Of a stretch of DNA of 64,000 bases, positions 5,301 to 38,048 are shown piece by piece. Positions within the stretch are counted from its first letter, which is position 1. Each line of letters starts with the position of its first letter. The notes below the pieces were generated by a model. The model was not told the origin of the DNA. It saw only the letters and a list, made by a program, of their open reading frames with translations, and did no database searches. Source of the DNA: Vitis vinifera (lineage: Eukaryota > Streptophyta > Magnoliopsida > Vitales > Vitaceae); assembly GCF_030704535.1 (NCBI RefSeq), contig NC_081806.1:4599001-4663000 (forward strand). The letters run 5' to 3'. The position numbers were made by a program, and so were the translations under genes.

Positions 5301-5639
5301 TCTATATTTTGTCATAAAATTGTTAAATGGAGAGATTGTTGATACATTAGGCTATATGTTATTAAAGTTGACAATTTTGCTTCAAATATTTTAGCTTAAG
5401 AACTTTATAAGATTGTATTTTACTCTCTATTAAAGACTTGAGAGTATTGTGTGATCAATCAGGATGACAAAGATAAGTATGAAAGGTCTTAAAAGGTAAA
5501 TAGGATTTAATTAAGACATTGTATGAAGTAAATATTTTTTAAAAAGGTTTTGAAAAAGGTTTTAAAACTTCTTTGAGTGCTTAAGCGCTCTTCTGTTCAA
5601 ATGCTAACACAAAGATTTCAATATTCAAGTAAAAAGTCT
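2341..5639. other. AT-rich intergenic DNA, no gene recognised
   Basis: Most of this stretch is very AT-rich (2,940-4,330 especially), with long A and T runs. The part from 4,340 to 5,500 is less AT-rich and looks like old, unclassifiable repeat or intergenic sequence. The open frame at 5,173-5,394 has no recognisable domain and is probably chance. I see no convincing RNA gene or element ends here. Confidence 0.5.
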
Positions 5640-6607
5640 AAAGTATCTCTTGAAGAGACGATTAAAAATTAAAAAATTAAAAGGAGAAACAATCTCTTCA
5701 AAAGATGATGATCTCTTAATAAATAAATAAATAAGGAAATAAATCATCTATTCGAAATATGATTTCAAAAAATCAAAGAAAACAAAATATTTTCAAGTTT
5801 TCTTATTTTTAATAATAAAATTATTATAAATATATGTATTGTAAAATTAATTGATTTTATGTTTTTTATTATTGATATACTATATATAATTATAATATTT
5901 ATAAAAGTATAAATTATGTTTAGCATCTCATATTAAAAAAAAATACTATTTTATATTAAGTTAGATATTGATTAAAACAATATTTTGTTTTTTTTATCTC
6001 CAATTTTATCTTTAAATTAATTTAATTAATTATAATTATAAATAGAAACTAATTTGATTTTATATTATTTTTATTTATAATATAAATAATGAGTATTTTA
6101 ATTTTTAAACTTTATCTATTACTTTCTTGTTCATTGAAATTTCATATTAAAAAAAAATCTATTATCAATTTTATTCTAGTTTATAAAAATAAATTTATCA
6201 TCGATTTCCTTTTTTAGTTTATTAAATAATATTTTTTATAAAATGAATAATTTTGTTTCATTTTAATTTTTAAATTAATTTTATTAGATAACTTTAAAAT
6301 TAAAAATATTATTCTTTAATTTAAATTTAACTATCTAATGTATAAAATATATAAAAATAAATTAATTTGGAATAAAAAATTCAACGGTCACAAATAATTT
6401 TTTAAGTATTAATCAATTTAAAACTAAATAATAATTTTGTTTTTTTTTTTTTTGAAGAAACGATTTTTAAGAACAAAGAAATCGTTTGTTTAAAAATCTA
6501 TTTTAGCATTTTTTTCTTATATGAGAAACTCATCTGTTAGCCTACCACGGCTGCAACGCCCACTATTGTCCCGCTGCAACACCCACTACTTTACACACTG
6601 CTCCACC
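5640..6607. repeat. Left arm of an old foldback element
   Basis: About 5,795-5,990 is an inverted copy of about 18,300-18,510, and about 5,895-6,130 is an inverted copy of about 17,960-18,200, so the right arm holds two partial copies of one left segment. Short palindromes with the core TCTCTTGAAGAGA occur near 5,645 and, diverged, near 5,690. The same core recurs in the right arm and in the hairpin array that begins at 6,811. The segment 6,535-6,607 is GC-richer and belongs to the original spacer between the arms. Confidence 0.65.
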
Positions 6608-6699
6608 GGACTTTTCTCAATAGTACAGTAGTTTAAAAAAGTTATGCTTAAATTATTGTAGTAGAAGAAGTTATTACAAATATATGGTAGTTTTTGCCA

Positions 6700-6795
6700 C
6701 ATAGGAGAGAGGAGAGAGGAGAGAGGGTGAGAGAGGAGAGAGGAGAGAGGAGAGAGGGTGAGAGAGAGGAGAGAGGAGATAGGAGATAGGGTGAA
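6700..6795. repeat. GGAGA-rich purine tract (left), mirrored at 8,640-8,730
   Basis: A run of GGAGAGA and GGGTGAGAGA units flanks the hairpin array. Its reverse complement (CTCTCCT, CTCACCCT) occurs at 8,640-8,730, so the two tracts can pair. Both are part of the foldback arms. Confidence 0.85.
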
Positions 6796-6810
6796 CGGAT
6801 ATTTAAAAAA

Positions 6811-8625
6811 GGGAACTCGTCTCTTGAAGAGACGAGTTCCATGAAAAAAAAAATATATATTTTTTTAAAAAAATTCCCATTTACTCAAGGGAACTCGTCT
6901 CTTCAAGAGACGAGTTCCATGAAAAAAGACAAGGGAAAGACGAGTTCTCAGGGAAAAAAATATTTTTTTTATTTAAAAAAAATCCTAAATTAAATAAAAA
7001 AAAATTTCCTAAAGGGAACTCGTCTCTTTGGGAAATTTTTTTTTTTAAATATATTTTTTATTTAAAAAAATCCCAAATTAAAAAAAAAAAAAAAATTCTT
7101 AAAGGGAACTCGTCTCTTCAAGAGACGAGTTCCCTAAAAAAAATATTTTTTTAAAAAAAATATATATATTAAAAAAAAAAATTTCCTAAAGGTAACTCGT
7201 CTCTTGAAGAGACGAGTTTCATGGGAAAAAAATTATTATTTTTTTTTAAATATATTTTTTGTTTAAAAAAAATCCCAAAAAAAAAAATTTCCTAAAGGGA
7301 ACTCGTCTCTTGAAGAGACGAGTTCCCATAGAAAAAACAATATTTTTTTTAAAATATATTTTTTATTTAAAAAAAATCCCAAATTAAAAAAAAAAGAAAA
7401 AAAACAATTTTTTTTTAAAATATAATTTTTTTACATGGGAACTCGTCTCTTGAAGAGACGAGTTCCCTTTAGGAATTGTTTTGTTTTTTTTTTTTTAATA
7501 ATAATAATTATTATATATATATTTAAAAAAAAAAAAAAATTTTACATGGGAACTCGTCTCTTGAAGAGACGAGTTCCCTTTGGAATTGGTTTTTGTTTTT
7601 TTTTTTTTTTTTTAATTTGGGATTTTTTTAAATAAAAAATATATTTAAAAAAAAAAAAAATTTCCTATGGGAACTCGTCTTAAAGGGAAATTTTTTTTTT
7701 TTAAATATATATATTTTTAAAAAAAAATATTTTTTTTTACATGGGAATTTGTCTCTTGAAGAGACAAGTTACCTTGAAGAATTGATTTTTTTTTTTTTAA
7801 TATATATATTTTAAAAAAAAAATATTTTTTTTACATGGGAACTCGTCTCTTCAAGAGACGAGTTCCCTTTGGAATTGTTTTTTTTTTTTTTTTTTTTTAA
7901 TTTGGGATTTTTTTAAAATAAAAAATATATTTTAAAAAAAAATATTTTTATTTAATATATATATATTTAAAAAAAATATATATTTTTTTCATGGGAATTG
8001 TTTTTTTTTTTTTTTTTTAATTTGGGATTTTTTTAAATAAAAAATATATTTAAAAAAAAAATATTTTTTTTCCCAAGGGAACTCGTCTCTTGAATTTTTT
8101 TAAAAATATATATATTTTAAAACATAATATATTTTAATTTAGGAATTTTTTTTTTTTTTTGTAATTTGGGATTTTTTTTTTAAATAAAAAATATATTTAA
8201 AAAAAAAATATTTTTTTTCCCATGGGAACTCGTCAGACGAGTTCCCTTTAGGAAATTTTTTTTTTTTTATAAATATATATATTTAAAAAAAAATTATTTT
8301 TTTTTACATGGGAACTCGTCTCTTGAAGAGACGAGTTCCTTTAAAAAAAAAAAAAAAAAATTTCCATGGGAACTCATCTCTTGAAGAGACGAGTTCCCTT
8401 TAGGAAATTTTTTTTTTTTTAATTTGGGATTTTTTTTAAATAAAAAATATATTTTAAAAAAAAATATTTTTTTTTCCCTTTAGTTCCAATTTTTTTTTTT
8501 TTTTTTTTTTTGAATTTTTTTAAAAAATATATATTTTTTTTAATGGGAACTCGTCTTTTGAAGAGACGAGTTCCCTATATATATTTTTTTTCATGGAACT
8601 CGTCTCTTCAAGAGACGAGTTCCCT
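6811..8625. repeat. Array of about 13 complete and 6 partial copies of one 30-bp palindrome
   Basis: Each full unit is a near-perfect palindrome: GGGAACT, then the core CGTCTCTTGAAGAGACG (or with TTC in the centre), then AGTTCCC. Full copies start near 6811, 6889, 7104, 7192, 7298, 7437, 7548, 7743, 7837, 8310, 8367, 8544 and 8596. Half or deleted copies lie near 6937, 7015, 7669, 7985, 8079 and 8222. Spacers are A/T homopolymer-rich. Their orientation flips near 7,430-7,600: AAATCCCAAATT-type spacers lie before it and AATTTGGGATTT-type after, so the whole array is itself a foldback. Confidence 0.95.
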
Positions 8626-9829
8626 TTTTTAATATCCGTTCACCGTCTCTCCTATCTCCTCTATCCTCTCTCTCACCCTCTCTCCTCTCTCCTCTCTCCT
8701 CTCTCACCCTATCTCCTATCTCCTCTCTCCTAGGTGGCAAACACTACCTGTGGACCCCGCATTTTGGGCTCAATGCGTTTCCCACTCGATGGCAAGCTCG
8801 ATTTTTATTTGAAAATTTGATTTTTTATTTGATTAAGAAAACTGACTTGGAGTCGCCACTTATTTTTGTTTTATTTTTAAAGGGTAAACAAAATAAGAAA
8901 GAAAAACCCTAAGTGTGACTCCTTGTTTTGGAAAAGGCGGTCTGTGAAAAACCGGATGGGTTCGGGGGTCAGGTTACTTATCGGGAAGGTACGGTAAAGA
9001 CCGTAGCACCCCTCTAAGTCCCTAAAGTCGGGTCTCTACTAATAAAATAAAGCAATCATGGCAATTGATGAGGAAATCAATGAATACTCAGAGTGATCAT
9101 GCACACGTGAGAATCTAAACATGCATACAGAAAATGACCAGAGTGGATGTGGATGCGTACCTAGGCGACGAGCCACCATGTGCTATCAAGAGAGGGGTTA
9201 GTGCATAATTAAGAAATAATAGCATGCATGTCGGAAAGCAGGATAAATAAATCATGTATGATAACCAAGTCAATCAATCGATCAATCAATCATAAAGTCA
9301 CCCATGTTGGGCCCCCACCAAAGCCTGTTTATTTAGCATGACTTAATGTCACAGATTCCATTATTCTGGAATTATGAAAAATTCGTTCACGCTTATTAAA
9401 ATCAAGAGGAATGGAAGATCGTTTGAAAACCAGAGCGGAATTAAAACTATTTGAGAGAAAATTGGACTTTTGAAATTTAATTGAAAATTTGGAATCTCGA
9501 AGATCACTAGAAAATTGGAGTTTTAGAGTTTATTTGAAGATCAGACTCTTAGAGGTTGAATGTGAGAATGTGAATTTTAGAAATCGAATTTGAAAGAGGT
9601 TGGAATTTTGAAAATGATTTGAGGGATCGGGATCTTAAGAAAAAAGATTAAGTTACGAAAATTGGGATTATGAGAGTTGAATTTTGAAAGATATCAGAAT
9701 CGTAAGTTATTTGAGAAGTATGAATTATGAAAGTTGATTTATGAAAAATGGAAGTCTCGAAAATCATTTGAAGGCAGACTTTTTAGAAATTGAACTGCGA
9801 GAACATAGACTTTTGAAAGTTGAATTTGT

Positions 9830-9866
9830 AATAATAATGATAATAAGATTTTGAAAGTTTGAATTG

Positions 9867-9903
<37 letters not shown>

Positions 9904-10135
9904 GATTTTGAAAGTTGAATTAATAATAATAATGATGATAAGATTTTGAGAGTTTGAATTAATAATAATAATAATAATAATGAGATTTTGAAAGCTTGAA
10001 TTAATAATAATAATAATAATAATAAGGTTTTGAAAGTTTGAATTAACAAAAATAATAATAATAAGATTAATAATAATAAAAAGATTTGGAAAGTTGAATT
10101 AATAATAATAATGATAATAAGAATAATAATAATAA
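9830..10135 (+). repeat. Interrupted (AAT)n microsatellite
   Basis: Blocks of AAT/ATA triplets alternate with the phrase GATTTTGAAAGTTTGAATT, giving a compound higher-order repeat of seven or so blocks. It lies inside LTR-like insertion 1, and the adjacent 9,400-9,830 holds more diverged forms of the same phrase. It creates meaningless leucine/tyrosine-rich frames on the minus strand. Confidence 0.9.
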
Positions 10136-10144
10136 GATTTTGAA

Positions 10145-10510
10145 AGTGCTTTGGGTTCCATCCCCATCATATGCCCAAGTCCATTCATTAAAAGAGCCTT
10201 GAGCTCCATCTCCATCAAGCCCAAGTCCATTCATTAAAAGAGCTTTGGGCTCCATTTACACCAAGCCCACGTCCATAAGCCCACGTCCATTCTTTAAAAG
10301 AGCTTTGGGCTCCATTCATTAAAAAAGCCTTGGGCTCCATCTCCATCTCCATCAAGCCCATGTCCATTCATTAAAAGAACCTTGGGCTCCATCTCCATCA
10401 AGCCCAAGTCCATTCATTAAAAGAGCTTTGGGCTCCATTTACACCAAGCCCACGTCCATTCTTTAAAAGAGCTTTGGGCTCCATTCATTAAAAAAGCCTT
10501 GGGCCATCCG
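10145..10510 (+). repeat. Tandem repeat with a unit of about 46 bp
   Basis: Variants of a phrase of about 46 bases, built on GTCCATTCATTAAAAGAG, GGGCTCCAT and CATCAAGCCCA, occur head to tail. Some units are shortened. Part of the block (about 10,175-10,345) is repeated at about 10,375-10,510. It is internal to LTR-like insertion 1. Confidence 0.85.
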
Positions 10511-11040
10511 GCCCAAGCTAAAAGAAAATGGCTTAAGGCCCACAAAAACAAACTTAAACCCAAACATAGGAGGTCCAAACAAACATTACCAACAAGCCTA
10601 AACTAAAAGAAAATGGCTTAAAGCCCACAAATACAAACTTAAGCCCACAAGTCAGTGTCTTGGGAGCCCACCAACAAAGCCCACTGCCTAAAATATCCAC
10701 CCAAAGATCAAAAGATGGTTTCTCTTTTTTTTTAAGAAATTTCCGGGTTGAAGACCGGTGGTGGCAGGTTGGTGGTGAAGATGGTAGAACAAAGCTCCAA
10801 TAATAAGAACCAAAATAAACTCATATCATCCTCACCCTATATATCCATCAACGAGCTTAGAAAAGAAGTTAAAAAAAACAAGCATGGAGTGGAGAAAAGA
10901 AAGTACCCGAAGATGAAAAACAAAAGAGAGAGGACGAGAGGTTAAAGAAAGGTCTATTTGGTGCCCGATTTTCTCTCTTGTCCCCAGATTTTTTTTCTTC
11001 AAAAAAAACCTCCCAGCTGCTGCCCGTTTTCTTCCTCCAC

Positions 11041-11398
11041 CTAGCTGCTGCCCCTCTTCCTCTTCAGTGCATGTGCTGCCCACAAAATCTCCTCCAATGC
11101 ATGTGCTGCCCAGAAAAAAACCAAATGCATGTGCTGCTCCCAAAATCTCCTCCAATGCATGTGCTGCCCAGAAAAAACCCAAATGCATGTGCTGCCCGGT
11201 TTTTCTTCCTTCTAGCTGCTGCCCCTCTTCCTCTTCAGTGCATGTGCTGCCCACAAAATCTCCTCCAATGCATGTGCTGCCCAGAAAAAAACCAAATGCA
11301 TGTGCTGCCCCCAAAATCTCCTCCAATGCATGTGCTGCCCAGAAAAAACCCAAATGCATGTGCTGCCCGGTTTTTCTTCCTTCTAGCTGCTGCCCCCT
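11041..11398 (+). repeat. 171-bp tandem repeat with nested 58-bp subrepeats
   Basis: The phrase CTAGCTGCTGCCCC starts at 11,041, 11,212 and 11,383, an exact 171-base period. Within each unit a 58-base subrepeat (starts at 11,083 and 11,141) is built on CTCCAATGCATGTGCTGCCC. Because the period is divisible by three and stop codons are rare in the unit, several frames on both strands stay open. The resulting ORFs are by-products of the repeat. Confidence 0.95.
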
Positions 11399-11724
11399 TT
11401 CTCCTTTTTCTCCTTTTCTTTTCTCTCTAGTCGGTTCCTACCTTCCCGGGCAAGCCATCACCTGCTTCCCTGTTTCCGCAGTCAGCAACATGGCTTCCTT
11501 CATCAGCAGCATGACATCTCTTGCAGTTGGTCCCACGCATGGAGAGGGGTCCCCCCACACCGCTCGGGTGCTGCCAGGTCCTCTAATATATATATAAAAA
11601 AAAACTCAATACCCATTGGCTCTTCAAAGGGGGTCTACACTACCGTATATTTGTAATAACTTCTTCTACTACAATAATTTAAGCATAACTTTTTTAAATT
11701 ACTGTACTATTGAGAAAGGTCCCC

Positions 11725-12046
11725 GCTCCACCACCATCCACTACTTCACACACCCCTACTTTATACACCACTCAACCGTTACATCACTTCACACACCACT
11801 GCACTACTCCGACGGTTTGACACTTCACACAGTTTGCACTCGTGCACCACTTCATACAATTTTACCATTTTAGATGGTATTGTCACTTCTAAGGTTCAAA
11901 AACACTTCAACATTATTATTATTTTTAGTAAACAAACACCCCTACCCTACACACACATAAAATATTAGATATATAATAAAATAAAATAAAACTATGAATT
12001 TATTAATTGTTATTAGCAGTAAATTATTATTTTTGCATAAAATATA
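11725..12046. other. Spacer of the outer foldback element (middle part)
   Basis: This segment lies between the hairpin element and the second LTR-like insertion. Its first part resembles 6,560-6,607 in direct orientation (CACTACTTCACACA and CACCACT phrases recur). Once the two insertions are removed it joins 6,535-6,607 on the left to 17,061 on the right. No gene is visible. Confidence 0.5.
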
Positions 12047-13242
12047 TGTGGACCCCATATTTTGGCTCATGCGTTTCCACTCGATGGTGTGCTTAATTTT
12101 TATTTGAAAAATGATTTATTTATTTATTAGAAAATGACTTGGAATCGCCACTTATTTTTGTTTTATTTTTAAAGGATAAACAAAATAAGAAATAAAAACC
12201 CTAAGTGTGACTCCTTATTTTGGAAAAGGTAGTCTGTGAAAAACCGGATCGGGTTTGGGGGTCAGATTACTTATCGGGAAGGTACGGTAAAGACCGTAGC
12301 ACCCCTTTAAGTCCCTAAGGTCGGGTCTCTACTAATGAAATGAAGCTGACATGATAATCAATGAAACAATCAATGAATATTCAAATCGATCATGCACATA
12401 TGAGTATCAGAATATGCAATAGAGAATAACCAAAGTGGAAGTGGATGCGTACCTGATCAGCAAACGATAACGCGCTATCACAAAGTGAGATTAGTGCATA
12501 GTAATGAACATAAAGTATGTCACTCATATCACCAAAACGGATAAAGAAGCACCAATAGCACACATGATATTTCATTCAAATTCATTCTTATTTTGAAGAA
12601 AATTTATTTGATGTAGGGCCCCCACCAAAGCCCATTTTATTTTGGCATGAACTAATTTCATAAATTCCATTATTTGGTATTATGAAATTTGATTCTTTAC
12701 TTACTTTAAAATATTTTGAGAATCAGAGAAAATTCGAAAACGACTTGTCGGAAAGAAAATACAACCAATTTTATTAAAAACGGAATGTTATGGGAACCTA
12801 AAAAAATGCTAAGGGTAAAAATGGAAGAATTGAAATCCGAAAATTTATTTGAAGAATATTATTTGGGAAGACAATCACTTTTAAAATTAAAGATAGTGAA
12901 CCTGAAGGTGACACATGGCCTAGAGTGACCATTCAGACCATGCCAGGGTGGATATAGGCTGTCATTAAGGAGAAAGGTCCTCAGCTGGGTGCAATTGTGT
13001 TGAGATTCCTCTATTGACGCTGGGAATGCTCTCATTTAATGAGGAGAAATCTCAATGTGAAGTCAGCTCATCTTCAATGGAAACACATCATGAAGACCTC
13101 TGGTAGCTTAGGGACCTTTTAACTGTGCGCTATCTGAAGTTCCAATCATCATCGAATGAGGCCTCATCGGAGATTCATTTGAAAATTTTGTATCACTGGT
13201 TGCATGGCCGCACATTACACGTGTCATGTCCTTCTAAAATTT

Positions 13243-13488
13243 TCAATCCGCCAGCTTGCAAGGCAATTTTCTGATGGCTATAGGCCATTGTGCCTGAGCT
13301 AGAATATTATTCTGCTCTAATTTTGCCTGTTCTCTGCCAACTAGGGCATGATGCGTTGTAGGAGTTGTATCACCTATTTTCAAGTCATGGAGCGCAGCAC
13401 AAGCAATGTCAGTCACAGCTGAATCCTTCACAGGAACTCCCTCAAACATAATCCCACCCAACGCCATCTCATTACTTGTCTCCTCAAC
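13243..13488 (-). pseudogene. Captured fragment of U2AF65 splicing factor
   Basis: The minus-strand frame reads VEETSNEMALGGIMFEGVPV, then VTDIACAALHDLKIGD, then EQNNILAQAQWPIAI. These match, in order, two separate parts of the plant U2AF large subunit: the end of RRM1 (typically VEEASNAMALDGIIFEG) and the end of RRM2 with the following helix (typically VTDIACAALNG-K-GDKTLTVRRA). The region between the two parts is missing, so this is a spliced or deleted fragment. The upstream glutamine-rich residues in the same frame are not assigned. It is not a functional gene. Confidence 0.75.
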
Positions 13489-13867
13489 ACTTATTCGGCC
13501 AAGGACCCGTCGCAGCAGCTGAAGTTGCTGCTGCTGCTGTGTTGACGTTCTCTGCCGGCTGTGCCGGAGCCGGCATAGAGCTTCAAGGAGGGCCAAGAAG
13601 TCCTCTTCCCTGTTGGTACTTGGGTCTGTCGCTGCTCATCTTCATTGGGGATTCATTTTCGAGGGTTTCTAGGTGAATCCAACTACCAGAAACTATAGAG
13701 AGCTGAAAGGAGGCTCCACAGTTAGCTCGGAGGGCCTTCCCATTGAACGGGTCACAACCTCCACTTAATCAGAGAAACAACACCCCATCTAAAGGCCATA
13801 GCTGATCAGCAATGCAACCAGGCTATCTGGGTCCTGGATCGGGTCGTGTCAAAGACCTTGTATATAA

Positions 13868-13999
13868 TTTTCCTCATGCAGCTTCGAGAGCATTTTAGGT
13901 CAAGAACAGTCAAAGTTGTTAAGCATTTAGCTGCTGCTCTTTGAGCTTTCCAACTGACATCCTCATCATCTATATATTCGGTAGCATTCTCATTATCCT
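13868..13999 (-). pseudogene. Captured fragment of CAND1
   Basis: The minus strand reads [22 protein letters not shown] and, after a one-base shift, PKMLSKLHEE. This matches the HEAT-repeat protein CAND1 (cullin-associated, NEDD8-dissociated), which in plants has [20 protein letters not shown] followed by RPEMLSKLYEE. Only about 45 residues are present. The frame is shifted and it runs directly into the IWS1-like fragment next to it. Confidence 0.75.
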
Positions 14000-14166
14000 C
14001 CTCCGCCTAAGGAATATCACCAGAGAAACGTACTTCGCGGTCACTCCCAAATCGGTCAGCAGGGTCGACACCACTATCATCTATGAAGTTAGATCCTCCA
14101 GAGTCCTTGGACCCTTGTGATCATCCTCAGAATCTCCTCTTGCAATCATATCCCAAAGCTTTTTCA
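14000..14166 (-). pseudogene. Captured fragment of IWS1-like elongation factor
   Basis: The minus strand reads KLWDMIARGDSEDDHKG and, after a one-base shift, NFIDDSGVDPADRFGSD and then P-stop-AEE. Plant IWS1 (partner of SPT6 in transcription elongation) has the acidic stretch MW-IA-GDSEDD followed by NFIDD-GVDPADRYGSD and PQAEE. The match is from memory of the family. The frameshift and the TAG in place of the glutamine codon show it is dead. Confidence 0.65.
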
Positions 14167-14290
14167 TCTCCGGTGACTCAAACAGATGCGAAACCTCACT
14201 CTGATCCACATCTATAAGCATGCCTGTCACTTTAACTACCATCTCGTGCTCCAGCTGATCCATGAGAGAGTACAAACTTTCACCTTGCAT
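14165..14290 (-). pseudogene. Captured MLLE (PABC) domain of poly(A)-binding protein
   Basis: The frame starting at the ATG at 14,290 encodes GESLYSLMDQLEHEMVVKVTG, then MLIDVDQSEVSHLFESPE. This is the C-terminal peptide-binding MLLE domain of cytoplasmic PABP, typically GE-LYPLV-QLE---AAKVTGMLLEMDQTEVLHLLESPEAL. The characteristic KVTGMLxExDQ core is conserved. The frame then runs straight into IWS1-like sequence, so the join is chimeric. Confidence 0.8.
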
Positions 14291-14800
14291 TGTTCTTTGC
14301 TATGGCCAAGGCACAGTGGGCATCATCTGAGAAATCCACATATGCCAGTCCCCTCGATTTTCCAATGAACTAGTCCTTCGATATTCGAATAGCTATGACT
14401 CCACCAAACATCACGAAAGAAAACACGAAGATGTTCATAATTTGTCTCAAAGGTCCAGGTTTAATATGAAAGCTGTGCACTGGTCCGAGTAGTTGTTCTT
14501 TTCATAGCTGGGGCCTTTCATTTGTCTCTTGCTCATATCACTTGGCTTGTCATCTTTAGCTTTGAGCTCTGGCTCTCCATTTGGTGCAACTACGTTTTCC
14601 AATTCAACTCTTCCTTTTCCACCAACTTTCTTTGGGTTTTGAGCAGAATCTTTCTGCCGCTTGGCTGGAGGTTGTTCATCAGTTCTACTGGAGCTTGACT
14701 TTTTCTTCACACGGGCATTTTTCTCATGGGGATTCTCTGTCTGATCTGTTGATGCAACTGCACTTTCTCCCTCAGTCTCACGGTATTCCAATCTGTTTCT
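14291..14800 (-). pseudogene. Captured fragment of SART3/PRP24-like U6 snRNP factor
   Basis: The minus strand encodes PPAKRQKDSAQNPKK, KGRVELENVV, MKGPSYEKN and CTAFILNLDL. In other frames it continues TNYEHLRVFFRDV, GGVIAIRISKD, then FIGKSRGLAYVDFSDDAH. This is the linker and first RRM of the SART3/PRP24 family, which recycles U6 snRNP. At least two frameshifts and one stop (after RISKD) interrupt it. It is the longest cargo piece and the first in its own reading direction. Confidence 0.75.
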
Positions 14801-16380
14801 ACGGATGCTGCAACTGACGCCATGGCCTCAGGAACACGAATGGAATCCAGTTGGCAATGGACCCAATGGAGGTCTCCCAATGGGTTTACTTTAAGAACGT
14901 CTTGAGGGCTCAAAGGATATTGTGGGACTTGGACTTGGGACGCCACCTGGAGAGAGTATCACGATGAAAAAGGAACACGCGGCAGTTATGATGGATGGGT
15001 CAAAGTTCCATGGCTTGAGGCAGCAACTGGGTGAGAGATTGATCTGACACGGGTGCATTTTGTATAGGAGCAGAAGGCAGCATGAAGTGTGATGAGCGAT
15101 ATATGGCATTGGATATGTTGGAGTGGTAACTGTGGGTATGATATTAGTATGAAGAGATGGTCAGTGGGTATGAAATAATGAAGATGGGGTGGTGAGGAAA
15201 AGAATGGGTGAGTAATGTGTCAATGCATGGGGGTATGGGTGATATAGGATATGATCAGTGGGAAGGAAAAGGGTTCAATGGGCTTAGAAATATGTGGCGG
15301 CATGCATGGCATGGGATGTATCCATAGCTGTTGCTGAGGCGCTTGTGCTTCCATCTCTTCCACATCTGGGTTGCCCAAAGAACTGCAACCCAGCTGTTTG
15401 AGGCGGGAAATCATCGGAAGCATTGGTGTACCCATCTTTCAGACTCCATTATCGACCGGCTTGAAGGCACTATTTTGGTGATGACTTGAAGAGGCTAGGG
15501 TCATTTCATCATAAAAGGAACTACATCTGAGACAAACCCAATAACGACCTTTGCAAGAGAAGCAATAGCCAAAGCTGATGAGACCTCGCCAGACGAAACC
15601 ACAAGAGCGAGAACCAACACTAGATCACTCTTGCTCGTCGCTACTGTGGGGCCATGCATGGATAAAGTAGACATAGAAAGGGGTTGGGAGTGATGGATAT
15701 GACAATCGGGTCCACTGCTGGGAGTGGGCATTAAGTGGAATTAATGGGCCTGAAGGAATAGATCCAGAGGTAATGTTTGATGAACCCGGGGGTAGTCATG
15801 GTCCATATCACATTAACCTCATGATTCTACACCAATATTCATAGTATAGCCTTGAAAATCACAGCAGCAGCTTCAAACGACAAAACGAACGTCATCTCGA
15901 ACAATGGAACCTCTCCCTCGTTTATTTGCCGCGAGAACCCGTAGTAAACTACTACAATAACGACCACGGAAGTGATCCCCAAAACGACTCGACATCACAC
16001 CATCATGCCTCGAGCGTAGAGAGAAAAGTTGTCATCACAGGCTTCTCACCGCTCTATTGTGACTAACAGCCGTATTTACTTATTGTATCATCTCATACTC
16101 TCCCTTTGATACCCAAAACTGAGCACCCCTTCAACCTGTATAACCTCTTATCTACTCACCCTAGTAACAAAGCTTTGGAGATGCCGACTGTGCAGGATAG
16201 TAATGCATGGCCTTCCCAAGATGTGAACGTCGTATTTCCGATTGGAAATCCCCATAAACTGAACCCTCAGCTCTGATATTCAGCATCATCAACGTACCAG
16301 CAACAGGGAAACAAAATGGAAGAAAAGGAGCCAAAACAAAAACGGGGGAAAGATAAACGAGGAAAGAAGTAAAAACATGA
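14801..16380. other. Unassigned part of the cargo in LTR-like insertion 2
   Basis: The stretch is more GC-rich and codon-like than the surrounding repeats and may hold more captured pieces. One plus-strand run, 14,890-15,046, reads KDIVGLGLGTPP and then MKKEHAAVMMDGSKFHGL, and looks like coding sequence. I cannot name it. Minus-strand frames at 15,220-15,435 and 15,501-15,731 have no domain I recognise. From 15,780 to 16,380 nothing is identifiable. Confidence 0.4.
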
Positions 16381-17060
16381 ATGTATTAGAGCCTCATTTC
16401 AGGTGATATCCATGGGCTAATACAAGTGAGGAGATCCCAAGCTAGAGTTACAAAATACATGAGAAACAGAGTCCCATAAACACCAAGCCAAATCATAAGG
16501 ATAACAGCAAGATCAACAACAACAACAAGAAGATGATCCAGAAAATCAACGAAAATCAACATATAATCCAACCCAAACTGATGAGCAATGCAAAGCAAAC
16601 CAAAATGAGAAGAATACGAATCAAAGTAAGCAAGAAAATCGCCTCAAACTCACCTGCGGCTGCTCTCTTCTCCTGTTCTCGCCTTCTTCAAGCTTCACTC
16701 TCAAAAAACCTCTCTGTCCTCTCCTACCGAAAACGCCCCCTTGCTCCTCAAAACTCCCCCCTTCTGGCAGCTCTTCCAGCTCCGAAAGAAACAAAACTCT
16801 CAGGAACTCCCCCCCTTCCGCAAGCCACTACCCACTCTCCTATTCGCCCCCTCAGCAAGCATGGCCTCCCAACCACCAGCATGGCTCTACAACCACCAGC
16901 ATGGCTCCCATTCTCTCCTGCCACCTGTCCTGTGCTGCTCCTTCACTTGGGAGGTGGCCCCCCCTTTCACTTCAAAGAAATGCTCAAACCAAGCTCGTCC
17001 CCGGGTGGTCCCAAAATCTAAGGAAAAACTATTATTTCCTTTGGTATTTAAGGGTCTATA

Positions 17061-17800
17061 ATATGATTTCAAAAATATTAAAATTATGAATTTATTTTAT
17101 ATATTTTTTAAAATTAATATTATTAGTAAATTGTTGAAAAAATTATTATAAAATATTGAAATTCTAAAATATTGAACATAAATTGATGACACACGTTAAT
17201 ATTTTGTTGCTTGTTGATTTATTTGTATTGATGATGCATGTTAGTTTGTATTAGTTGTTAGTGATTTATATTAGTGACATATGTTGTTAGTCTATAGTTT
17301 GCTGATATTCATGGTTGTTATTTTGTTTGTTGTTAGAATGTTTGTTGGTTTATTAGTTTATTTATATGGATAAGGTATTAATTTTTTTTTTTAATAGTAG
17401 TTGATATTTGATCATTTATCATTTGAATCCTTTCCATTGTTTAGGAACTGAACATATTAATACAAGTAATAGGGTTGATATTTTTTTGGTTGTTAGATAT
17501 ATGAAGTTATGAACAAGGTTGTTGGTTTTCTATAATTATGATAGTAGATAATTTAGTATTTAAAATATTTGATTATTAAGGATTGAACAGAAATCGATAC
17601 AAGTTATTAGTTTTTATATCTATGATGTACTGTCTTTGAATTTCAAGGCTTTTATAAGTTGGATATATGCTTTTTGAAAAGATGTTTTCTTGATTTTCTT
17701 TTTATAATTTTTTATTTGAACGATTTTCTTAAAACTTATGACATTAAAAATTGCAAATAGATAAAAAAAAAATTATATAACAAAAAAAATTTATTTTCCT
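17061..17800. other. Spacer of the outer foldback element (right part)
   Basis: AT-rich, non-coding sequence with a GT-rich patch at 17,190-17,370 (TTGTTG and GTTAG phrases). It joins 12,046 on the left once LTR-like insertion 2 is removed. No gene or RNA is seen. Confidence 0.4.
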
Positions 17801-18870
17801 CAAAATTTTTCTTAAAAATTAGAACCAAGCAAAATTATTTATTTTGTAAATAATTATTTAATTAATTAAAAAATTAAATTGATAATAACTTTATTTTTTA
17901 TAAACTCAATTTTCACATAAAATTAGTAATAGTTTTTTTTCCTTAATCTAAAAGTGAAACGAACAAAAAGTAACCGATAAAGTTTAAAAATTAAAATATT
18001 TATTATTTATCTGAGAAATAAAAAATAATATAAAACTAAAATAATTTTTATTTATAATATGAATTAATTAAATTAATTTAAAGATAAAATTGGAGATAAA
18101 AACCAAAATATTCTTAATCAATATCTAACTTAATATAAAATAGTATTTTTTTAATATCAGTTGCTAAACATAAATAATTTATGCTTTTATAAATAGATTG
18201 ATAAATAATATATCCCAATAATTATAAATATTTTTATACATTGAATTTGGTAAATAAAATTGATTAATTTTATAATAATTATATTATCTTTATACTACGT
18301 CATTTAAAAATCGAGATAAAAACCAAAATATTGTTTTAGTCAATATGAGATGGTAAATATAATTTATACTTTTATAAATATTATAATTACAAATGATATA
18401 TCGATAATAATAAACATAAAATCAATTAATTTTACAATACATATATTTATAATAATTTTATTATTACAATATGTTATTAGTTAAAATATTATTAAAAATA
18501 AGAAAACATGAAAAAATTAATTTTTTTTTAAATCGTTTCCCACATGATTTTTTTTGTTGAAAAATTAAATAAATAATTTTTACCTATAACTTTTTATAAA
18601 AAAAATAATAAAAAGAAATCGTCTCTTCAAAAGACAATTTTAACATAAAGTTTTTTTTAAAGAATTTTTAGAAATTGTTTCTTTAAGAGAGAAACGATTT
18701 TTACCTATAATTTTTTTTTTAAAAGAAAATGAATCGTCTCTTCAAAAGATGATTTTTAGGTCAAATCTAATTTTTCTTTTCCATTTGGCAAAAACTACAA
18801 TAAATTTAAAATTATTTTTTTTCAATGAATTGTTTTTTTAAATTATGTACACTTGTAAAAAATCCTCACA
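17800..18870. repeat. Right arm of the outer foldback element
   Basis: The arm is the inverse of 5,640-6,330, with a partial internal duplication (see the left arm). Palindromes with the core CGTCTCTTCAAAAGACAA or close variants lie near 18,617, 18,685 and 18,732. The end, 18,785-18,868 (TTTGGCAAAAACTACAATAA through TTTTTTAAATTATGTACA), is a diverged relative of the inner hairpin element's right terminal repeat at 11,638-11,724. Inner and outer elements therefore belong to one family. Confidence 0.6.
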
Positions 18871-18993
18871 AACTTTGTGGCCAAATTATATCGTTGTATT
18901 AAAAAAAAGCGTGCAGGCAACGCAAATTGAAAGCCTAAAACCACCTAATTTGAATGTTTCTAAGGAGAATAGAAGAGTAGGCTTTTGTTTGAT

Positions 18994-21900
18994 TGTAGAC
19001 CCTCAGTTTTGGAGATATTTTGGACCACATTTTTACCGCCTTTTAGAGATTTTGGGCAACAGGTGTGTGGAAGATAGTGGGTTGGCAAAAGACCTTTACT
19101 TGAGGGAACCAGAAGAAGAAAGAGAATGAGAGGGAAAATCAGAACAAAGAAAGGGAGGAATTCGTGAGTTTTTTTTACTAACTTTTGTTAGAGAGGAGCT
19201 CTCCTAGTGCGAGCATTGTGAATTTTCTATTCATATTACTCATTATGTTGTTCTTCATGCATGTAATGAGTACATTTGTTCTCAATACAAATACATTTGT
19301 GACCTACTAACGAAACACAATATGCTTGGTGCTAATGCAGTTTCCACCCCGATTTCCTCCAACATGTCCCTTAAGTTGCATGATGGGGCCCTTCCAACTG
19401 ATCCCACTAAATACCGTCAAGTCATTGCTTCTATACAGTACCTTTCCCTCACTCGACTTGATATATCTTTTGCAGTGAACAAGCTCTCTCAGTTCATGCA
19501 CCGCCTATCCATTACTCATTGGTCTGCAGTTAAGAGGATTTTTTGGTATCTTAAAGGCACTATTCATCTTAGCCTATTTCTTTGAAAGCACTCGCCACTC
19601 ACTCTCTATGCCTTTGCAGATGCTGATTAGGTGGGAAACTCTAATGATCGCACTTCCACATCTGCCTATGTCGTGTTTCTTAGGTGTAACCCAATTAGTT
19701 GGAGCTCTAAGAAACAAAAAATAGTGACTCGATCCTCCACTAAAGTGGAATATTGAGTTGTTGCTACCATCGTAGCTGAAATCAATTGGGTACAAAACTT
19801 ACTTTATGAACTTCATGCCCAGTCTTCCTCTACTCCAACAATTTACTGTGACAATGTGGGCGCCACATATGTGTGTGCCAATCTTGTCTTTCATTCTCGC
19901 ATGAAACACATTGCCATTGATTTCCACTTTGTTCGTGATTAAGTGTCTAAGAAATTGCTGTGTGTCTCTCATATTCATACTTTTGAACAATTCGCTGACT
20001 CTCTCACAAAGCCCTTACCTCGCCTTTGATTTTTAAATCATCGCTCTAAGATTGGCATCCAGGATGGAAGCTCAATCTTGCGGGGTCATGAAAGGAAAAC
20101 CCGTTGACCTTGACCTATATATTTTTGGTAGCAAACACTACCCATATTCTCTGTCAATCTCCTACCAATCTCGGTTGTAATATACATATTCTTTATCAAT
20201 CCCTTACCAATCTCGATTGTAATTTACAGTCCACACATATCTCTTATAACCAGTATATAATACAATGAATCACAAAGGAATAATATGTTCTCATTTTTCT
20301 ATTCTTTCTATAAACCTAATAGTTTTTGCATCTGAAAGCTCAAAGTCAGAAGCTTCAACAGCAAATTCACAAAGCTTCAAGGAACTATATCTGTCACCCA
20401 AAGAAAATCTTATGCAGTTAATGTTTTAGAGATTTCTTTGTTCATTCTAATTCTAACAGTAGAACCGATGAGAGTTTGCATGGCCACCTTCAGCATGCTA
20501 AGTCACAGTCCCATGCGAGCCATGTTCAACCTTGATTACATTGCACGAGCCTAGCCTGAAGAAGGGTTCGATCACCAGGATTTGTTGGAATAAGGTGACA
20601 ACAAAAAAGTTTATTCCCCGACCCATAGAGATAAGGTTTGGTAAGCCTAATAATTCCACTTATTTGGTCGTATACACTTCACAAGGTGAAACATGAATTG
20701 TGTATGTTTCCCATCCAACAATTTGATAATGCCTCAAGGTTGCTTGATGTTCTGTGTCTGTGCCTCTAGTCATGTAGGATGGGGTTTGTGTAACATCCAT
20801 GTTCAGGTTGGTAAATGCAACCAGTCTTTTTATACTCATTGGAGGCCATGAATGTGAAGGAAAATGTGTTTGTTTCTGGACCAAATGTTGGTGGAAAAAG
20901 TCAGTGGACACGAGTATGGGTAAGGTACTCTAGGTTGCGAACCTATTTTTTGCTGGGGCATGCAGATTTCTGTGATTGAGCTTGCTAGATTTGTTTTGGG
21001 CATGAAAAGAGTGAATGCTAAAGAGTTTTAACACCTAGACACCTGATCACATTATACTATTCATACCAGAGAGTCCAATAACACATATGGGAAACACCAT
21101 GAGACTAGGATCCCGAAGAACACTGTTCAAGACTCCTGATTTTATTACTTTAAGACTGTATCATAATTCAGAGTATGTGAGTGAACCATTAGAACTTGAG
21201 CAAAGTTAAGGGGATTTGAAGACCATATCCAGTACTCACTTCTAGCAACTGTCCGCCCATTTCCCACGTGCCTCATCTTCTTAATTCTTCATCCCTATTT
21301 TCTTCATCTTTGCTTTTGAAAATTGATTTTCAGAAGTTTGGTTTTTAGATAATTTTAATTCCTTTGTTTGCTCATTCTCAGATTTTCCTTGGGCGATAAA
21401 ATACTGATTTTAAAAAATTGTTCGCTGCCATAGTTCTCTTCCGGCATGCATTTTCATATTTTCTTTGATTTTTATTTATTTTTTCTTGATTTTAAATAAA
21501 CATGAATGAATTTTCATAGTTCCAAAATAATAAAATTTGTAGGATTAATTTATGCAAAATCAATAAGACATTGGTGGGGCCCAACATCTGTGATTGAACA
21601 TTGATTGACTTTGATTTGCTTTGTGACACATGTGATTATTTTGTATTCGTTTACTAACATTTGTTTTCCACGAAGCAATCAACTCACTACTCGAGTACAC
21701 ACCTTGTCTTTTTTATTCATTTGATTATTTCTAAATTGATATTCTTTTGGTATTCATGTTTAATCTATCAATTGCCCCACTTGTTTTAACTTAATTAGTA
21801 TAGACCTAATTCTTAGGGCTTAAAGGGGTGTTACCTAATTCTTAAGGTTTAGAAGGGTGTTACGGTCTATCACTATACCTTCCTAATAGATAATCCAATC

Positions 21901-22060
21901 CTTAAACCAGACTTGATTTTTTTACATATCAATTTTTTTTTTTAAGATAAAACAAAAATAAATGGCTACTTCAAACTTAATTTTCTTAAATAATTTTTTT
22001 AAAATAAAAATGAGTTTCATCATTCGCGTAGAAACGTATGTGTAAAAATACGGGTCCACA
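18994..22060 (-). mobile_element. LTR-like insertion 3 (3,067 bp), inverted
   Basis: On the minus strand the element begins TGTGGACCCG at 22,060 and ends GAGGGTCTACA at 18,994. The perfect pentamer TTGAT flanks it at 18,989-18,993 and 22,061-22,065. Its first 600 or so bases (22,060 down to about 21,450) are a diverged match to the 5' ends of insertions 1 and 2, including ATTTTTGTTTTAT, a GGGAAGGTA-type line, GGTCTATACTAAT and TTGGGCCCCACCAA. A copia fragment lies inside. The segment 20,300-21,450 is non-coding and unassigned. Confidence 0.75.
19311..20065 (+). pseudogene. Copia reverse transcriptase end and RNase H fragment
   Basis: The frame starts in the C-terminal part of a Ty1/copia reverse transcriptase (VSTPISSNMSLKLHDG, then RLDISFAVNKLSQFMH) and runs through RNase H ([43 protein letters not shown]). 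Stops interrupt it after LSLFL and at three later sites. Gag, protease, integrase and most of the RT are missing. The following 20,066-20,330 may be the remains of its 3' end. It sits inside LTR-like insertion 3 and is unrelated in sequence to the complete copia at 31.8 kb. Confidence 0.85.
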
Positions 22061-22222
22061 TTGATCAATGGATGTGACATGGCCGTCTAATTTCGTGGAC
22101 CACCATCCATTGCTTGGACGACTTGGCATTGAGTGGTGGTGAAATGCTGTTGTTTTCCGTGTGCCTCCTAGGCTCCTATCAACACGAAAAGAGCCAGCAC
22201 AGCCCTATTAATACAGACTTCA

Positions 22223-22608
22223 TAGTTTGATAACCGTTTTTTCTTGTGGTGGTGATAAAATAATCAAAATATAAGTTATTTATCATAAAACATTGAGAAA
22301 AATTGTCAATTTATGATAAGATTACAGAAAGTGCCAAAGCACAACTATACATCAAGAAAGAAGAAAAAGTCGAATTGCAATAAGTTTGATAGCTGTTTTT
22401 TCTTGTGGTGGTGAAGCCCTATACTCTATGGAGCGAGACCCGTTAGTTCGTAAGAGGGGATTTTCCTTTCATGGGGTGATAAAATTATCAAAATATAAGT
22501 TATTTATCATAAAACATTGAGAAAAATTGTCAATTTATGATAAGATTACAGAAAGTGCCAAAGCACAACTATACATCAAGAAAGAAGAAAAAGTCGAATT
22601 GCAATAAG
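22223..22608 (+). repeat. Tandem duplication upstream of the amine oxidase
   Basis: A segment of 160 bases at 22,223-22,382 is repeated nearly unchanged at 22,383-22,608. The second copy contains an extra 64 bases (AGCCCTATACTCTATGG onward). The pair lies 490-875 bases upstream of the amine oxidase ATG. A regulatory role is possible but not shown. Confidence 0.9.
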
Positions 22609-31840: not shown

Positions 31841-31845
31841 AGTTG

Positions 31846-32044
31846 TATTAAGGAAATTATATGTTAGTTATTGTATGATTATCTTGACATAATTAGCTGA
31901 TTGTATAGGAGCATAATTAGCCTTATATTTCTGATTCTGTAGCTATAATTTAGGAGAAGATTAGATCAAACATGTGTATATATATACTACATTCTGTTAA
32001 TGAGAAAAGTCTCCAATTTGAAGCCAATTTCTTTATTCTTGTTA
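31846..32044 (+). repeat. 5' LTR of the copia element
   Basis: Begins TATTAAGGAAATTATATG and ends TTCTTGTTA. It is identical to the 3' LTR except for CTCC versus ATCC near the end and CAATTTC versus CAATCTC. Confidence 0.95.
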
Positions 32045-32073
32045 TGGTATCAGAGCAAGAACAACAAACCACC

Positions 32074-33219
32074 ATGGCTGGCAGTCAGAAGGCTTCTGGA
32101 TCAGAAAACAAGACCATCGATCCTTCACATCCCCTCTATATTCATCATTCAGATCAACCAGGCCATGTTTTGGTGCCCATCAAATTAAATGGGGTCAACT
32201 ATCAATCATGGAGCAAAGCAGTTATTCATGCCCTTACTGCCAAGAAGAAGATCGGCTTTGTCGACGGGACAGTTGAAGAACCATCGCAGGAAGATGAACC
32301 CTTTATGTTTGACCAGTGGAATCAATGCAACAACATGATACTTTCTTGGCTAACTCATGCTGTTGAATCGGACATTGCTGAAGGAATTATCCATGCTAAA
32401 ACAGCACGCGAAGTGTGGGTTGATTTACGCGACCAGTTTTCTCAAAAGAATGCTCCACCGGTTTTTCAAATACAGAAATCAATCGCCACCATGTCGCAAG
32501 GAACAATGATAGTAGCTGCATATTTTACAAAGATCAAAGCCTTATGGGACGAGCTTGAGACATACCGTTCCCCGCTGACCTGCAACCAACGGCAAGCACA
32601 TCTCGAGCAAAGGGAGGAAGACCGTCTTATGCAATTTCTAATGGGTTTGAATGAGTCATATAAGGCAGTGAGATCCAATATTTTGATGATGTCGCCATTG
32701 CCCAATGTCCGTCAAGCATACTCTTTAATTGTCCAGGAAGAGATGCAATGGCAAGTTTCTTCTGAGCCAACCGAGAATTTCTCAATAGCTGCCGCAGTCC
32801 CGGGAAAAGGAGGTAATCCAAGACAGAAAATGTGTGACCATTGTAACAGATCCGGACATACCATAGATGAATGTTGGACTCTTAAATTTCACTGTAAGTT
32901 CTGTGATAAAAGAGGTCACACGGAGGATAGATGCCAACTGAAAAATGGGAGCAATAACAAAACGGAACAATTCCGAGGACAACGTCTTTTTGGTCGTGGG
33001 AATCAGCCCTCAGCAAACGCGACAGAATCCCAGGAAATGTCTGATTCGACTTCTTCTAGTACAGTCCAGGGGTTCACTACAGAACAAATACAACAGTTGG
33101 CTCAAGCAATTCGTGCATTAAATCACAGTAATTCCGGTAATATTGACGCATATGCAAATGCTGCAGGTTTGATTCCATCAACTCTTGTGTCTGTTAATTC
33201 TAGTAGTACAAGTTCTTAG
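32074..33219 (+). pseudogene. Copia gag
   Basis: From the ATG at 32,074 (another in-frame ATG spans the LTR end at 32,044) the frame encodes a copia capsid: HPLYIHHSDQPGHVLVPIKL, NYQSWSKAV and FLMGLNESY are typical. Two zinc knuckles follow, CDHCNRSGHTIDEC and CKFCDKRGHTEDRC. It ends at a TAG (33,217-33,219) directly before ILDTGATDH. In related elements a tryptophan codon (SWILDSGATDH) stands there, so the stop is probably TGG to TAG and gag-pol was once one frame. Confidence 0.85.
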
Positions 33220-33575
33220 ATTTTGGATACAGGTGCCACGGATCACATCGTTTCCCACATGTCTCTTTTCACTGATCTCAAACCTTCTAATGTCACAACT
33301 GTTAATTTACCAAATAGTGCAGCATCACCAATAACACACACTGGCACCGTTATTTTTTATTCCCAATTGACCCTTAAAGATGTTTTATGTGTCCCATCCT
33401 TTAACTTGAATTTAATTTCGGCTAGCAAAGTCGCAAAAGATCAGAATTGCTGCATCATATTCTTTCCTGACTATTGTATTTTGCAGGACTTGGTTTCGGG
33501 GAAGATGATTGGCTCGGGTAAACAGCGTGGTGGTCTATACTACATGCATCCATCAACAAATAAATCGGTTGTTGA
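33220..33575 (+). pseudogene. Copia protease
   Basis: The aspartic protease active site DTGATDH stands right after the gag stop. Copia-typical phrases follow: LTLKDVLCVPSFNLNLISASK and GLYYMHPS. The frame is then cut by the nested insertion at about 33,575. Confidence 0.85.
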
Positions 33576-35105
33576 TTACTACTCAAAAACCACATATTTT
33601 AGATACTAACTTTCATGAGTTTCACACATTTTGAGTAGTAATTATGCCTAATATGCCCAAGTAATACATTACTACCCTTGCAAGAGATTCTAATGGTTCT
33701 TTGTTGAGTTTTGGAGATATTTTAAGGTGATTTTTGAAGCATGGAGTGACAAATGGAAAATGGAATGGAGGAGGATACATAATGTGGATGAAGAGGAAGA
33801 GGAAATGCACTTGGACCAAGCTTTGGAGCTTAATTGAAGGTGGTGGAGATGGATTAAACATGAACAAATGAGAGAATTTGCAAAGAGGAACCGGAATAGC
33901 ATGATTTTCGATTTCGCATGACCATGCGAAATTTCCGCACAGTCATGCGAAATGAAACAGAGAGAGTATGGCTGCAGCATATGAGGAAATTGTGAAGAAG
34001 TGATTTCGCATGACCATGCGAAATTTTCGCACAGTCATGCGAAACGCTCCAGAAGAACGAAATTCCAGCTGATTGATTTTTCATTTCGCACCATCATGCG
34101 AGATCACTAGGGGCTCGTGCGAAAGTGCATTCTCTCCAGATTCCTTGATGAAAAAGCATTCGGAAGACCTCTAAAATGTTGCCAAGTGTCCTTTTTACCT
34201 TGGCCTATAAATAGAAACGAGATTTTCTCATTTAAGGACTTTTGATTCATTTTCTAATTGTAATAACTTTTCATACTTCTTCTCTCTATATACAATTCTC
34301 CACTTTCTTTCAGTTTCTTTTATTTTCTCGGTAGCCAAACATGTCTTGTGAGATTAAATCTCCAAGCATGAGTGGCTAAATCTCGTTTTTCTTGGAGGAG
34401 GGAGGATCTAGAGGCAAGATCTATGGTGAATTAGAGAATTGAGCTTGAATTGCTAAGGTAATTTGATCCAATTGATTGATTAATTGAAATTTGGGGATTT
34501 TTCTCTTCAAATTGTCTTGGATGATTACTACAATGCAAACTAGGTAGATTCATCAAATTCTTAATGCTAGATTTGATGAGATTGAATAGTTGCATTGTGT
34601 GAATCATTGGAAGATAATTTAAGATGAATTGAATATATGATTCAAATTGATCTCTTAGATTAGATTACCTAATTTGAAGAGAAATTAGATCTAGATCTAA
34701 AGCTAAATCAAAAATCGGTTTAGATGAAAATTTAGGTTTTCAATCTAACTTGATGAAAATTAGATCTTAACACCCATTCACCATGGAAATTGCTCTCTAG
34801 AAAATCCTAACTCCGAGAATCTCACCTCTTATAAATTTTCTTCTCTTTTAAACTTCATTTTCAATTCAATTTGAATACATTGTTAATTTGGAAGTTTATC
34901 ATGCAATTTCAAGTTGATTTCACTTTTTCACAATCATTTCTTATCATCTCATTCAAGCCTTAATCACCAAGAATAATCCATCCTTGTGGACGATACCTAA
35001 AAACCACTATGCTACAGTAGTTTGTACTAAAGCCAATTTTTGATCGGGTACAAATTGCTATAGAAGAGTGAATTAGGCTATAAATTTTGTTTTGATCCAA
35101 CAAAC
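33575..35105. mobile_element. Nested insertion in the copia pol gene (probable solo LTR of another family)
   Basis: About 1.5 kb of non-coding sequence separates the protease from the GAG-pre-integrase region. It opens with ATTACTACTCAAAA, whose inverse TTTTGAGTAGTAAT lies about 50 bases on. It contains the imperfect palindromic phrase TTTCGCATGACCATGCGAAA with variants at about 33,910-33,955, 34,000-34,045 and 34,083-34,125. A probable TATA region (TATAAATAGAAA, 34,205-34,216) and a late line TCCTTGTGGACGATACC (34,981 onward) are like many plant Ty3/gypsy LTRs. I could not fix the target duplication, so the exact ends are uncertain. Confidence 0.6.
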
Positions 35106-36957
35106 GACAAAATCTGAGCGATCAGTTGTCTTTCATGTTTCTCAACCGTCTGACTTATGACATTTACGCCTGGGTCATCCCTCTTTTTCTCGTTTTAAAT
35201 TATTATCACATTTGCTTCCAGATATTCATAAAGAATTAGGAAATCATTGTCCAATTTGCCCATAGGCTAAGCAGACACGCTTGCCCTTTCCCAAAAGTTC
35301 AATAACTACAAAATTTCCTTTTTCTCTTTTACATTGTGATGTCTGGGGTCTTCACAAAATTCCTGCACATACTGGTTCACGTTATTTCCTTACAATTGTT
35401 GACGATTTTTCTCGTTGCACATGGATTTTCCTTATGCATCATAAGTCAGAAACACAATCTTTGTTAACTAATTTTGTGCAATTCGTCAAAACTCAATTCC
35501 ACACAGATGTTCAAACGGTAAGAATGGATAATGGCACAAAATTTATTCCTCTTCGCATCTTTCTTCAAAATAAAAGAATCGAACTTCAAACCTCTTGCAT
35601 TTACACTCCGCAACAAAACGGAGTTGTAGAACGCAAACATCGACACATTTTAAATGTTGCCCGTTCTCTCATGTTTCAATCAAATGTCCCACTTGAGTTT
35701 TGGGGAGAATGTGTTTTAACAGCCGTTTATCTGATAAACCGCATTCCGACTCCATTGCTCTCAAACAAATCACCATTCGAGGTCTTATATAATCGGCCTC
35801 CTTCACTCACACATTTGCGAGTTTTTGGTTGTGAATGCTATGTAACCAATGTTCACCCCAAACAGAAATTTGACCCTCGGGCATCTATTTGTGTTTTTTT
35901 GGGGTATCCACATGGAAAAAAAGGCTATAAAGTACTCGATTTGCAAACACAAAAAATATCAGTCAGCCGAGATGTATTCTTTCGGGAAAATATTTTTCCT
36001 TTCCATTCTAGTTCTTCTCAATCTCAACAACATTCACCTTCTCTTCCTTTACCGCTTCCCATTTCTTTCGATTCCACACCTCAGCCGATATCTCTTCCTC
36101 GTTTTTCTCCAAGTTCCACTCCTCCCTTGTCGCATCACAATCCTGTATCATCTCCACCTTCCTCTAATACTGATGTTCCCGAACCTTTATCCCCAGAATC
36201 AGTTGCGTCACCCTTACCTTCTTCTCCATCTCCTTCTTCGCTTTCTTCCCCACCTTCCGTGCCCTCAGTACCCTCCAACACGTCAGCCCTTTCCCTCACC
36301 CATGAACCCCCTCTTCGACATTCCACTCGTCATATTCAGCCTCCTGCCTGGCACCACGACTATGCCATGTTTACCCAGTTTAATCATTCTTCCACGCAAT
36401 CAAGTTCTCGTCAAGGTACAAGGTATCCCCTCTCTTCTCACCTTTCTTTTTTTCGTTTTTCACCCCATCACCGTGCTTTTTTAGCTCTTTTGACAGCCCA
36501 AACCGAACCTTCATCCTTTGAACAAGCTGACTGTGATCCACGTTGGCGCCAAGCCATGTCCACCGAATTTCAGGCTCTAGAACGAAACAACACTTGGGAG
36601 ATGGTCCCTCTTCCTCCGGGACACAAACCCATTGGCTGCCGCTGGGTGTACAAGATCAAATACCATTCTGATGGAACCATTGAACGCTATAAAGCCCGTT
36701 TGGTTGCCAAGGGCTACACACAGGTCGCCGGTATCGACTATCAAGAAACCTTTTCTCCAACTGCCAAACTCACCACTCTTCGCTGTTTGCTGACTATCGC
36801 AGCTTCCAGAAATTGGTACATCCATCAGCTTGATGTGCACAACGCATTCCTTCATGGCAATTTACAAGAAGAGGTTTATATGACTCCACCTCCTGGTCTT
36901 CGCCGACAGGGGGAGAATCTGGTATGTCGGCTTCGCAAATCTATTTACGGTTTGAAA
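35105..36957 (+). pseudogene. Copia integrase and N-terminal reverse transcriptase
   Basis: The pre-integrase zinc region (HLRLGHPS, NHCPICP) is followed by the integrase core (CDVWG, IVDDFSRCTWIFLM, QQNGVVERKHRHI) and the RT start (GCRWVYKIKYHSDGTIERYK, LDVHNAFLHG). Stops replace expected codons at SDL-stop-HLRLGHPS (a tryptophan in relatives), CP-stop-AKQT, and YGLK-stop at 36,958-36,960 (normally YGLKQASR, CAG to TAG). Between them 35,281-36,957 is open. Confidence 0.9.
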
Positions 36958-36960
36958 TAG

Positions 36961-38040: not shown

Positions 38041-38048
38041 AGGGGGAG

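Follow-up and report, generated by a model that had tools for sequence, protein, structure and literature searches.

Pieces of several host genes inside a single LTR-like unit of Vitis vinifera

The capture of host gene pieces and their joining into chimeras is familiar from Helitrons and Pack-MULEs, whose cargo may draw on several genes. Here we describe a comparable cargo in a unit with ends of the long terminal repeat (LTR) type. The unit, insertion 2, lies at 12047-17060 of a 64,000-nucleotide stretch of Vitis vinifera DNA (GCF_030704535.1, NC_081806.1:4,599,001-4,663,000, forward strand), hereafter the window, to which all coordinates refer. Insertion 2 differs from Helitrons and Pack-MULEs in its ends and target duplication, and scans of its cargo found no ends of their kinds. 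In the maize element Bs1, paired LTRs flank the cargo; insertion 2 differs from that layout in consisting of one LTR-like unit with the cargo within it.

Among described LTR elements, a maize survey counted 425 intact elements with gene fragments, representing at least 189 independent captures (PMC2774510). Insertion 2 resembles these in carrying gene fragments within LTR-type sequence and differs in the number of genes, since in that survey, under its own conditions, no single LTR element combined fragments from two or more standard nuclear genes (PMC2774510). Bs1 itself is described as an LTR-type element whose host pieces derive from three genes, fewer than in insertion 2 (PMC13317346). Barley BARE-2 offers a parallel of another sort, in that foreign sequence is described as having entered its LTR through abnormal template switching; the donor, however, was another retrotransposon, Wis-2, and not a series of cellular genes (PMC13317346). 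A literature search found no announced multi-gene cargo inside a plant LTR, a result judged without full texts and with subscription journals mostly outside its reach.

Three units with shared ends

A three-way alignment shows that insertion 2 has its ends and a conserved block in common with two neighbors, insertion 1 (8749-11639, minus strand) and insertion 3 (18994-22060, plus strand and thus reversed). The conserved LTR part of insertion 2 occupies 12047-12741 (minus strand). Within it, 12047-12687 matches 8749-9379 of insertion 1 at 78% over 652 columns, beginning with the first base at TGTGGACCCC, and the likeness continues at 71% until it fades at about 12741. The right LTR part (16814-17060, minus strand) is colinear with the right end of insertion 1; here the match is weaker, with 16814-16883 aligning to 11441-11513 at 70% over 74 columns (expectation value, E, 8e-6). 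The termini are TG...TA, one base off TG...CA, and the target duplication reads ATATA/ATATG, or exactly AATAT/AATAT when the ends are moved by one base. Inside insertion 2, neither a second LTR nor a pair of direct terminal repeats was found. An earlier note on this DNA had described an LTR element whose ends are shared with insertion 1. The LTR-type ends are indeed shared, on the left and on the right, while the absence of an LTR pair makes insertion 2 more exactly a single-LTR unit than an LTR element in the usual sense. Its minus-strand assignment follows the sense of the cargo rather than that of LTR transcription.

Insertion 1 is a sister single LTR-like unit without recognizable gene cargo. 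It starts with TGTGGACCCC and finishes with GGGGTCTACA (TG...CA), and CTACC stands on each flank. Its host is a fold-back element (6608-11722) that is self-complementary over 6686-8748 and has a short terminal repeat (6608-6691 against 11722-11639, 96%). When the empty site was rebuilt by joining the flanks, minus the insert and one copy of the duplication, the product aligned with the opposite arm of the fold-back as a single match of 228 columns, 95% identical; because this alignment spans the junction, insertion 1 is one clean insertion. No second LTR copy was found inside it, and its 60 open reading frames (ORFs), overlapping 9450-11640, gave no NCBIfam match up to E 0.1 and one Pfam match, at E 0.068. 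Scanning insertion 1 for bacterial promoters was uninformative. Insertion 3, in reversed orientation, has the ends TGTAGACCC...GGGTCCACA (TG...CA), a TTGAT target duplication and the shared conserved block. In all three units this block (12047-12741, 8749-9430 and 21484-22060) could fold into a hairpin, and the remainder of the units is largely unrelated.

The real window holds three such end pairs, two of them with an exact duplication. Simulated windows yielded 0.02 pairs each and none of 100 had an exact duplication, although the motif was chosen from these same ends.

Gene pieces in the cargo

Five named pieces lie on the minus strand of insertion 2 in the order SART3-like (14797-14290), PABP MLLE (14299-14165), IWS1-like (14167-13998), CAND1 (14000-13870) and, past an unassigned stretch, U2AF65 (13494-13238). 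The PABP piece is an MLLE domain fragment with support from Pfam (PF00658, 4.8e-11), the PDB (2dyd, 1.1e-13) and NCBIfam (PABP, 4.2e-9). The CAND1 piece matches residues 331-360 of PDB 1u6g (E 2.3e-5) and no Pfam family; its extension from 13911 to 13870 was read by eye past a frameshift. The U2AF65 piece, also without a Pfam family match, corresponds to profile positions 346-399 of NCBIfam TIGR01642 (E 1.9e-8), with its last 32 bp read by eye. Against PDB 2yh0 it gives two weak stretches (59-81 and 164-197; E 0.27 only), between which 82 chain residues are absent.

The remaining two names were read by eye. What we take to be a SART3/PRP24-like fragment, comprising a linker and the first RRM, is a putative identification; on its ORF at 14283-14369, Pfam RRM_1 scores E 0.05 and the best PDB match is nucleolin (E 6.9e-6), with SART3 at only E 0.49, and the neighboring ORF (14326-14460) has no PDB match. 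The N-terminal IWS1-like fragment is presumably IWS1 by comparison with the plant protein; it has no PDB match and no other database support.

From the SART3-like piece through PABP and IWS1-like to CAND1, the four pieces appear continuous by eye over about 930 bp (14797-13870), which leaves no space for introns or intergenic DNA, and one reading frame continues from MLLE into the IWS1-like piece. Where pieces adjoin, several bases appear to belong equally well to either gene; as a lead only, such overlaps may suggest joining at microhomology. Beyond this stretch, two parts have no assignment, namely about 1.6 kb past the SART3-like piece and about 375 bp that separate CAND1 from U2AF65; at 14820-16400 (minus strand), no family scored below E 0.05 on either strand. 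Stops and frameshifts occur in the three-frame view of the cargo, so these decayed pieces do not suggest a working protein. Among 57 ORFs on the opposite strand of the cargo, none matched a Pfam family up to E 0.1, and the NCBIfam scan yielded no E value under 0.059. A weak Phosducin match (E 0.03, 14447-14827) was not taken up.

Insertion 3 carries pieces of its own, both on the plus strand. A CTP synthase piece (20948-21185) is supported by PDB 7mip (E 1.8e-6) and 2w7t (E 0.0068) and by NCBIfam PyrG (profile 379-405, E 2.6e-4; 411-453, E 0.0063), without a Pfam family match. On human CTP synthase chains, its two adjacent ORFs correspond to residues 398-424 and 428-476; about 79 residues are thus colinear with 238 bases, and no intron-sized insert separates the two ORFs. 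A 5'-truncated reverse transcriptase/RNase H piece of copia type (19208-20086) was recognized by eye, with RVT_2 at only E 0.082 on 19208-19582. The family scan of insertion 3 covered 53 of its 55 ORFs, the other two being short and on the minus strand near 21.4 kb; a weak match to NADH dehydrogenase subunit A (E 0.012), in one of the 53 and not traced to its ORF, was not taken up. The five named pieces of insertion 2 and these two all read toward the GGTCCACA end, away from the end of TGTAGACCC type. Under random orientation, such agreement among seven of seven has a chance of 1 in 64, three of the names (SART3-like, IWS1-like and copia) being given by eye.

The earlier note had proposed most of this picture for insertion 2. 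Its five minus-strand pieces stand for PABP, CAND1 and U2AF65 on database matches, and for the other two largely on reading by eye; its claim that they are directly joined appears to hold from SART3-like to CAND1 and lapses at the unassigned stretches on either side. The single frame from MLLE into IWS1-like is visible as described, and the gap between two RRM parts of U2AF65 reappears as the missing residues of the weak PDB match. That a multi-gene cargo sits within LTR-type ends is supported, the more so with insertion 3 and its own captured pieces. These same pieces, a CTP synthase and a copia fragment, weaken the note's emphasis on RNA processing.

How the cargo may have been acquired

The explanation that we favor, with somewhat better than even confidence, is that these units are solo LTRs whose variable part gained pieces of messenger RNA through serial template switching by reverse transcriptase. 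Insertions 1, 2 and 3 would be solo LTRs of one plant LTR retrotransposon family with long and variable LTRs. In a full-length ancestor of insertion 2, and separately in one of insertion 3, reverse transcriptase would have switched away from the element RNA partway through the variable LTR part, passed among several spliced cellular mRNAs packaged with it wherever short stretches matched, and then returned to the element. Normal LTR synthesis would have copied the chimeric LTR to both ends and the element would have inserted; recombination between its LTRs could later have left one copy. We infer these ancestors, the RNA templates, the switching between them and the formation of solo LTRs from what the units directly display, namely their ends, target duplications, single-LTR structure and coding-derived pieces in one orientation. 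Switching among packaged mRNAs fits because the pieces are coding, share one orientation, are directly joined in one stretch, lie within a single LTR and occur in two copies of the family.

Published gene structures bear on the RNA route. More than 80 of 113 plant U2AF65A sequences are reported to have 12 exons, with a few plant copies intronless (PMC8635922), most U2AF65B genes are reported to have more than 10 exons (PMC12027700), and Arabidopsis CTPS2 contains introns (PMC8082242). From the U2AF65 figures, the U2AF65 parent likely has introns.

Several observations weigh against this reading. Capture through RNA is plausible rather than proven, and the U2AF65 gap could be explained by a later deletion. 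Two of the five piece names, SART3-like and IWS1-like, depend mainly on reading by eye, and the assigned pieces add up to 1185 bp out of about 3511 bp, leaving about two thirds of the cargo unassigned. A coding-potential scan gave no separation of the strands; RNA folding gave the two LTR strands z-scores of -2.15 and -2.03, too alike to indicate a direction. We recognized no internal region, primer-binding site (PBS), polypurine tract (PPT) or gag-pol belonging with these ends, and insertion 2 has an exact target duplication only when its ends are moved by one base. Finally, an inverted repeat with 13 of 14 bases matching, which spans 13201-15658, encloses much of the cargo, all five named pieces included, as the boundary of a nested DNA element might.

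Such a nested element—a Helitron or Pack-MULE that captured the genes and inserted into a solo LTR, its own ends since decayed or missed by the scans—is to our minds unlikely, though it would suit the location of the cargo in mid-LTR. In the maize survey, captures number 1194 for Helitrons and 462 for other DNA transposons, beside the at least 189 independent ones for LTR elements (PMC2774510). The 13201/15658 repeat, however, came from a list of imperfect 18-base inverted repeats, in which the match concerns the outer 14 bases; it has no matching flanks or target duplication and is, by a rough estimate, at about chance level in 4.4 kb. The earlier note had named a separate terminal inverted repeat (TIR) or Helitron boundary around the cargo as refuting its reading, and the scans found neither. 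With left ends sought at 12650-14300 and right ends at 15000-16900, the first three bases matching and at most three mismatches in 14, the scan turned up no pair of TIRs bordered by a target duplication around the cargo (none in five shuffles), although degenerate TIRs could escape. Likewise, no Helitron hairpin-CTRRT end was detected on either strand of 12600-17100, where shuffles average 0.2, and degenerate ends could again escape. Insertion 3 holds like cargo in the same relative orientation, so that two independent nestings would be required.

Two further explanations both seem improbable. If the cargo was once internal to a full element, the inner LTR halves may have been deleted later, leaving the outer halves on either side of it. 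An internal position is the usual site of host pieces in LTR elements, as in Bs1, but matching deletions would be required in insertions 2 and 3, and no trace of a PBS or PPT was recognized by eye. We regard as slightly less probable again that the cargo is filler DNA, patched from several loci into a double-strand break in an old solo LTR. Short pieces joined directly, at a locus rich in rearrangements, are in keeping with such a repair. Filler would nevertheless be expected to mix orientations and to include introns and intergenic DNA, whereas all seven identified pieces, three of them named by eye, are coding-derived and lie in one orientation in two elements; such DNA could still sit in the unassigned two thirds of the cargo.

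Setting and implications

The window is judged by eye, from its ORF translations, to be plant nuclear DNA. On the same reading, it appears to include P450 genes in a cluster, a copia element and a gene of hAT type. Nested mobile DNA with many rearrangements occupies the region from 5.8 to 22 kb, and an AT-rich inverted repeat (5812-6282/17802-18287, 79% identity) flanks the nest that holds insertions 1 and 2. Near the end of insertion 3 lies a 135 bp direct repeat (22251-22385/22475-22609, 99% identity). Farther on, a 3.65 kb direct duplication (23608-27249/49925-53560, 97.4%) lies inside the repeated P450-like gene cluster. The element recognized by eye as copia-type (31845-38247) is probably young, since its 200-bp repeats (31845-32044/38048-38247) are 99% identical. 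An Rfam scan of 5500-22500 gave 28 matches up to E 1, every one under the gathering score; 27 of them fall in the fold-back element at 6800-8631 and belong mostly to microRNA-precursor families.

Plant gene shuffling by transposons is credited mainly to Helitrons and Pack-MULEs. A bolder proposition, which we hold only tentatively, is that this LTR family recurrently gathers scraps of spliced mRNA, its LTRs being multi-gene chimeras of which every new element receives a copy at either end. If true, an LTR family that chains mRNA pieces within its LTRs would constitute a second route to multi-gene chimeras, and one that places host exons under or beside LTR promoters. The units described here would then also preserve a record of reverse transcriptase hopping between packaged mRNAs.

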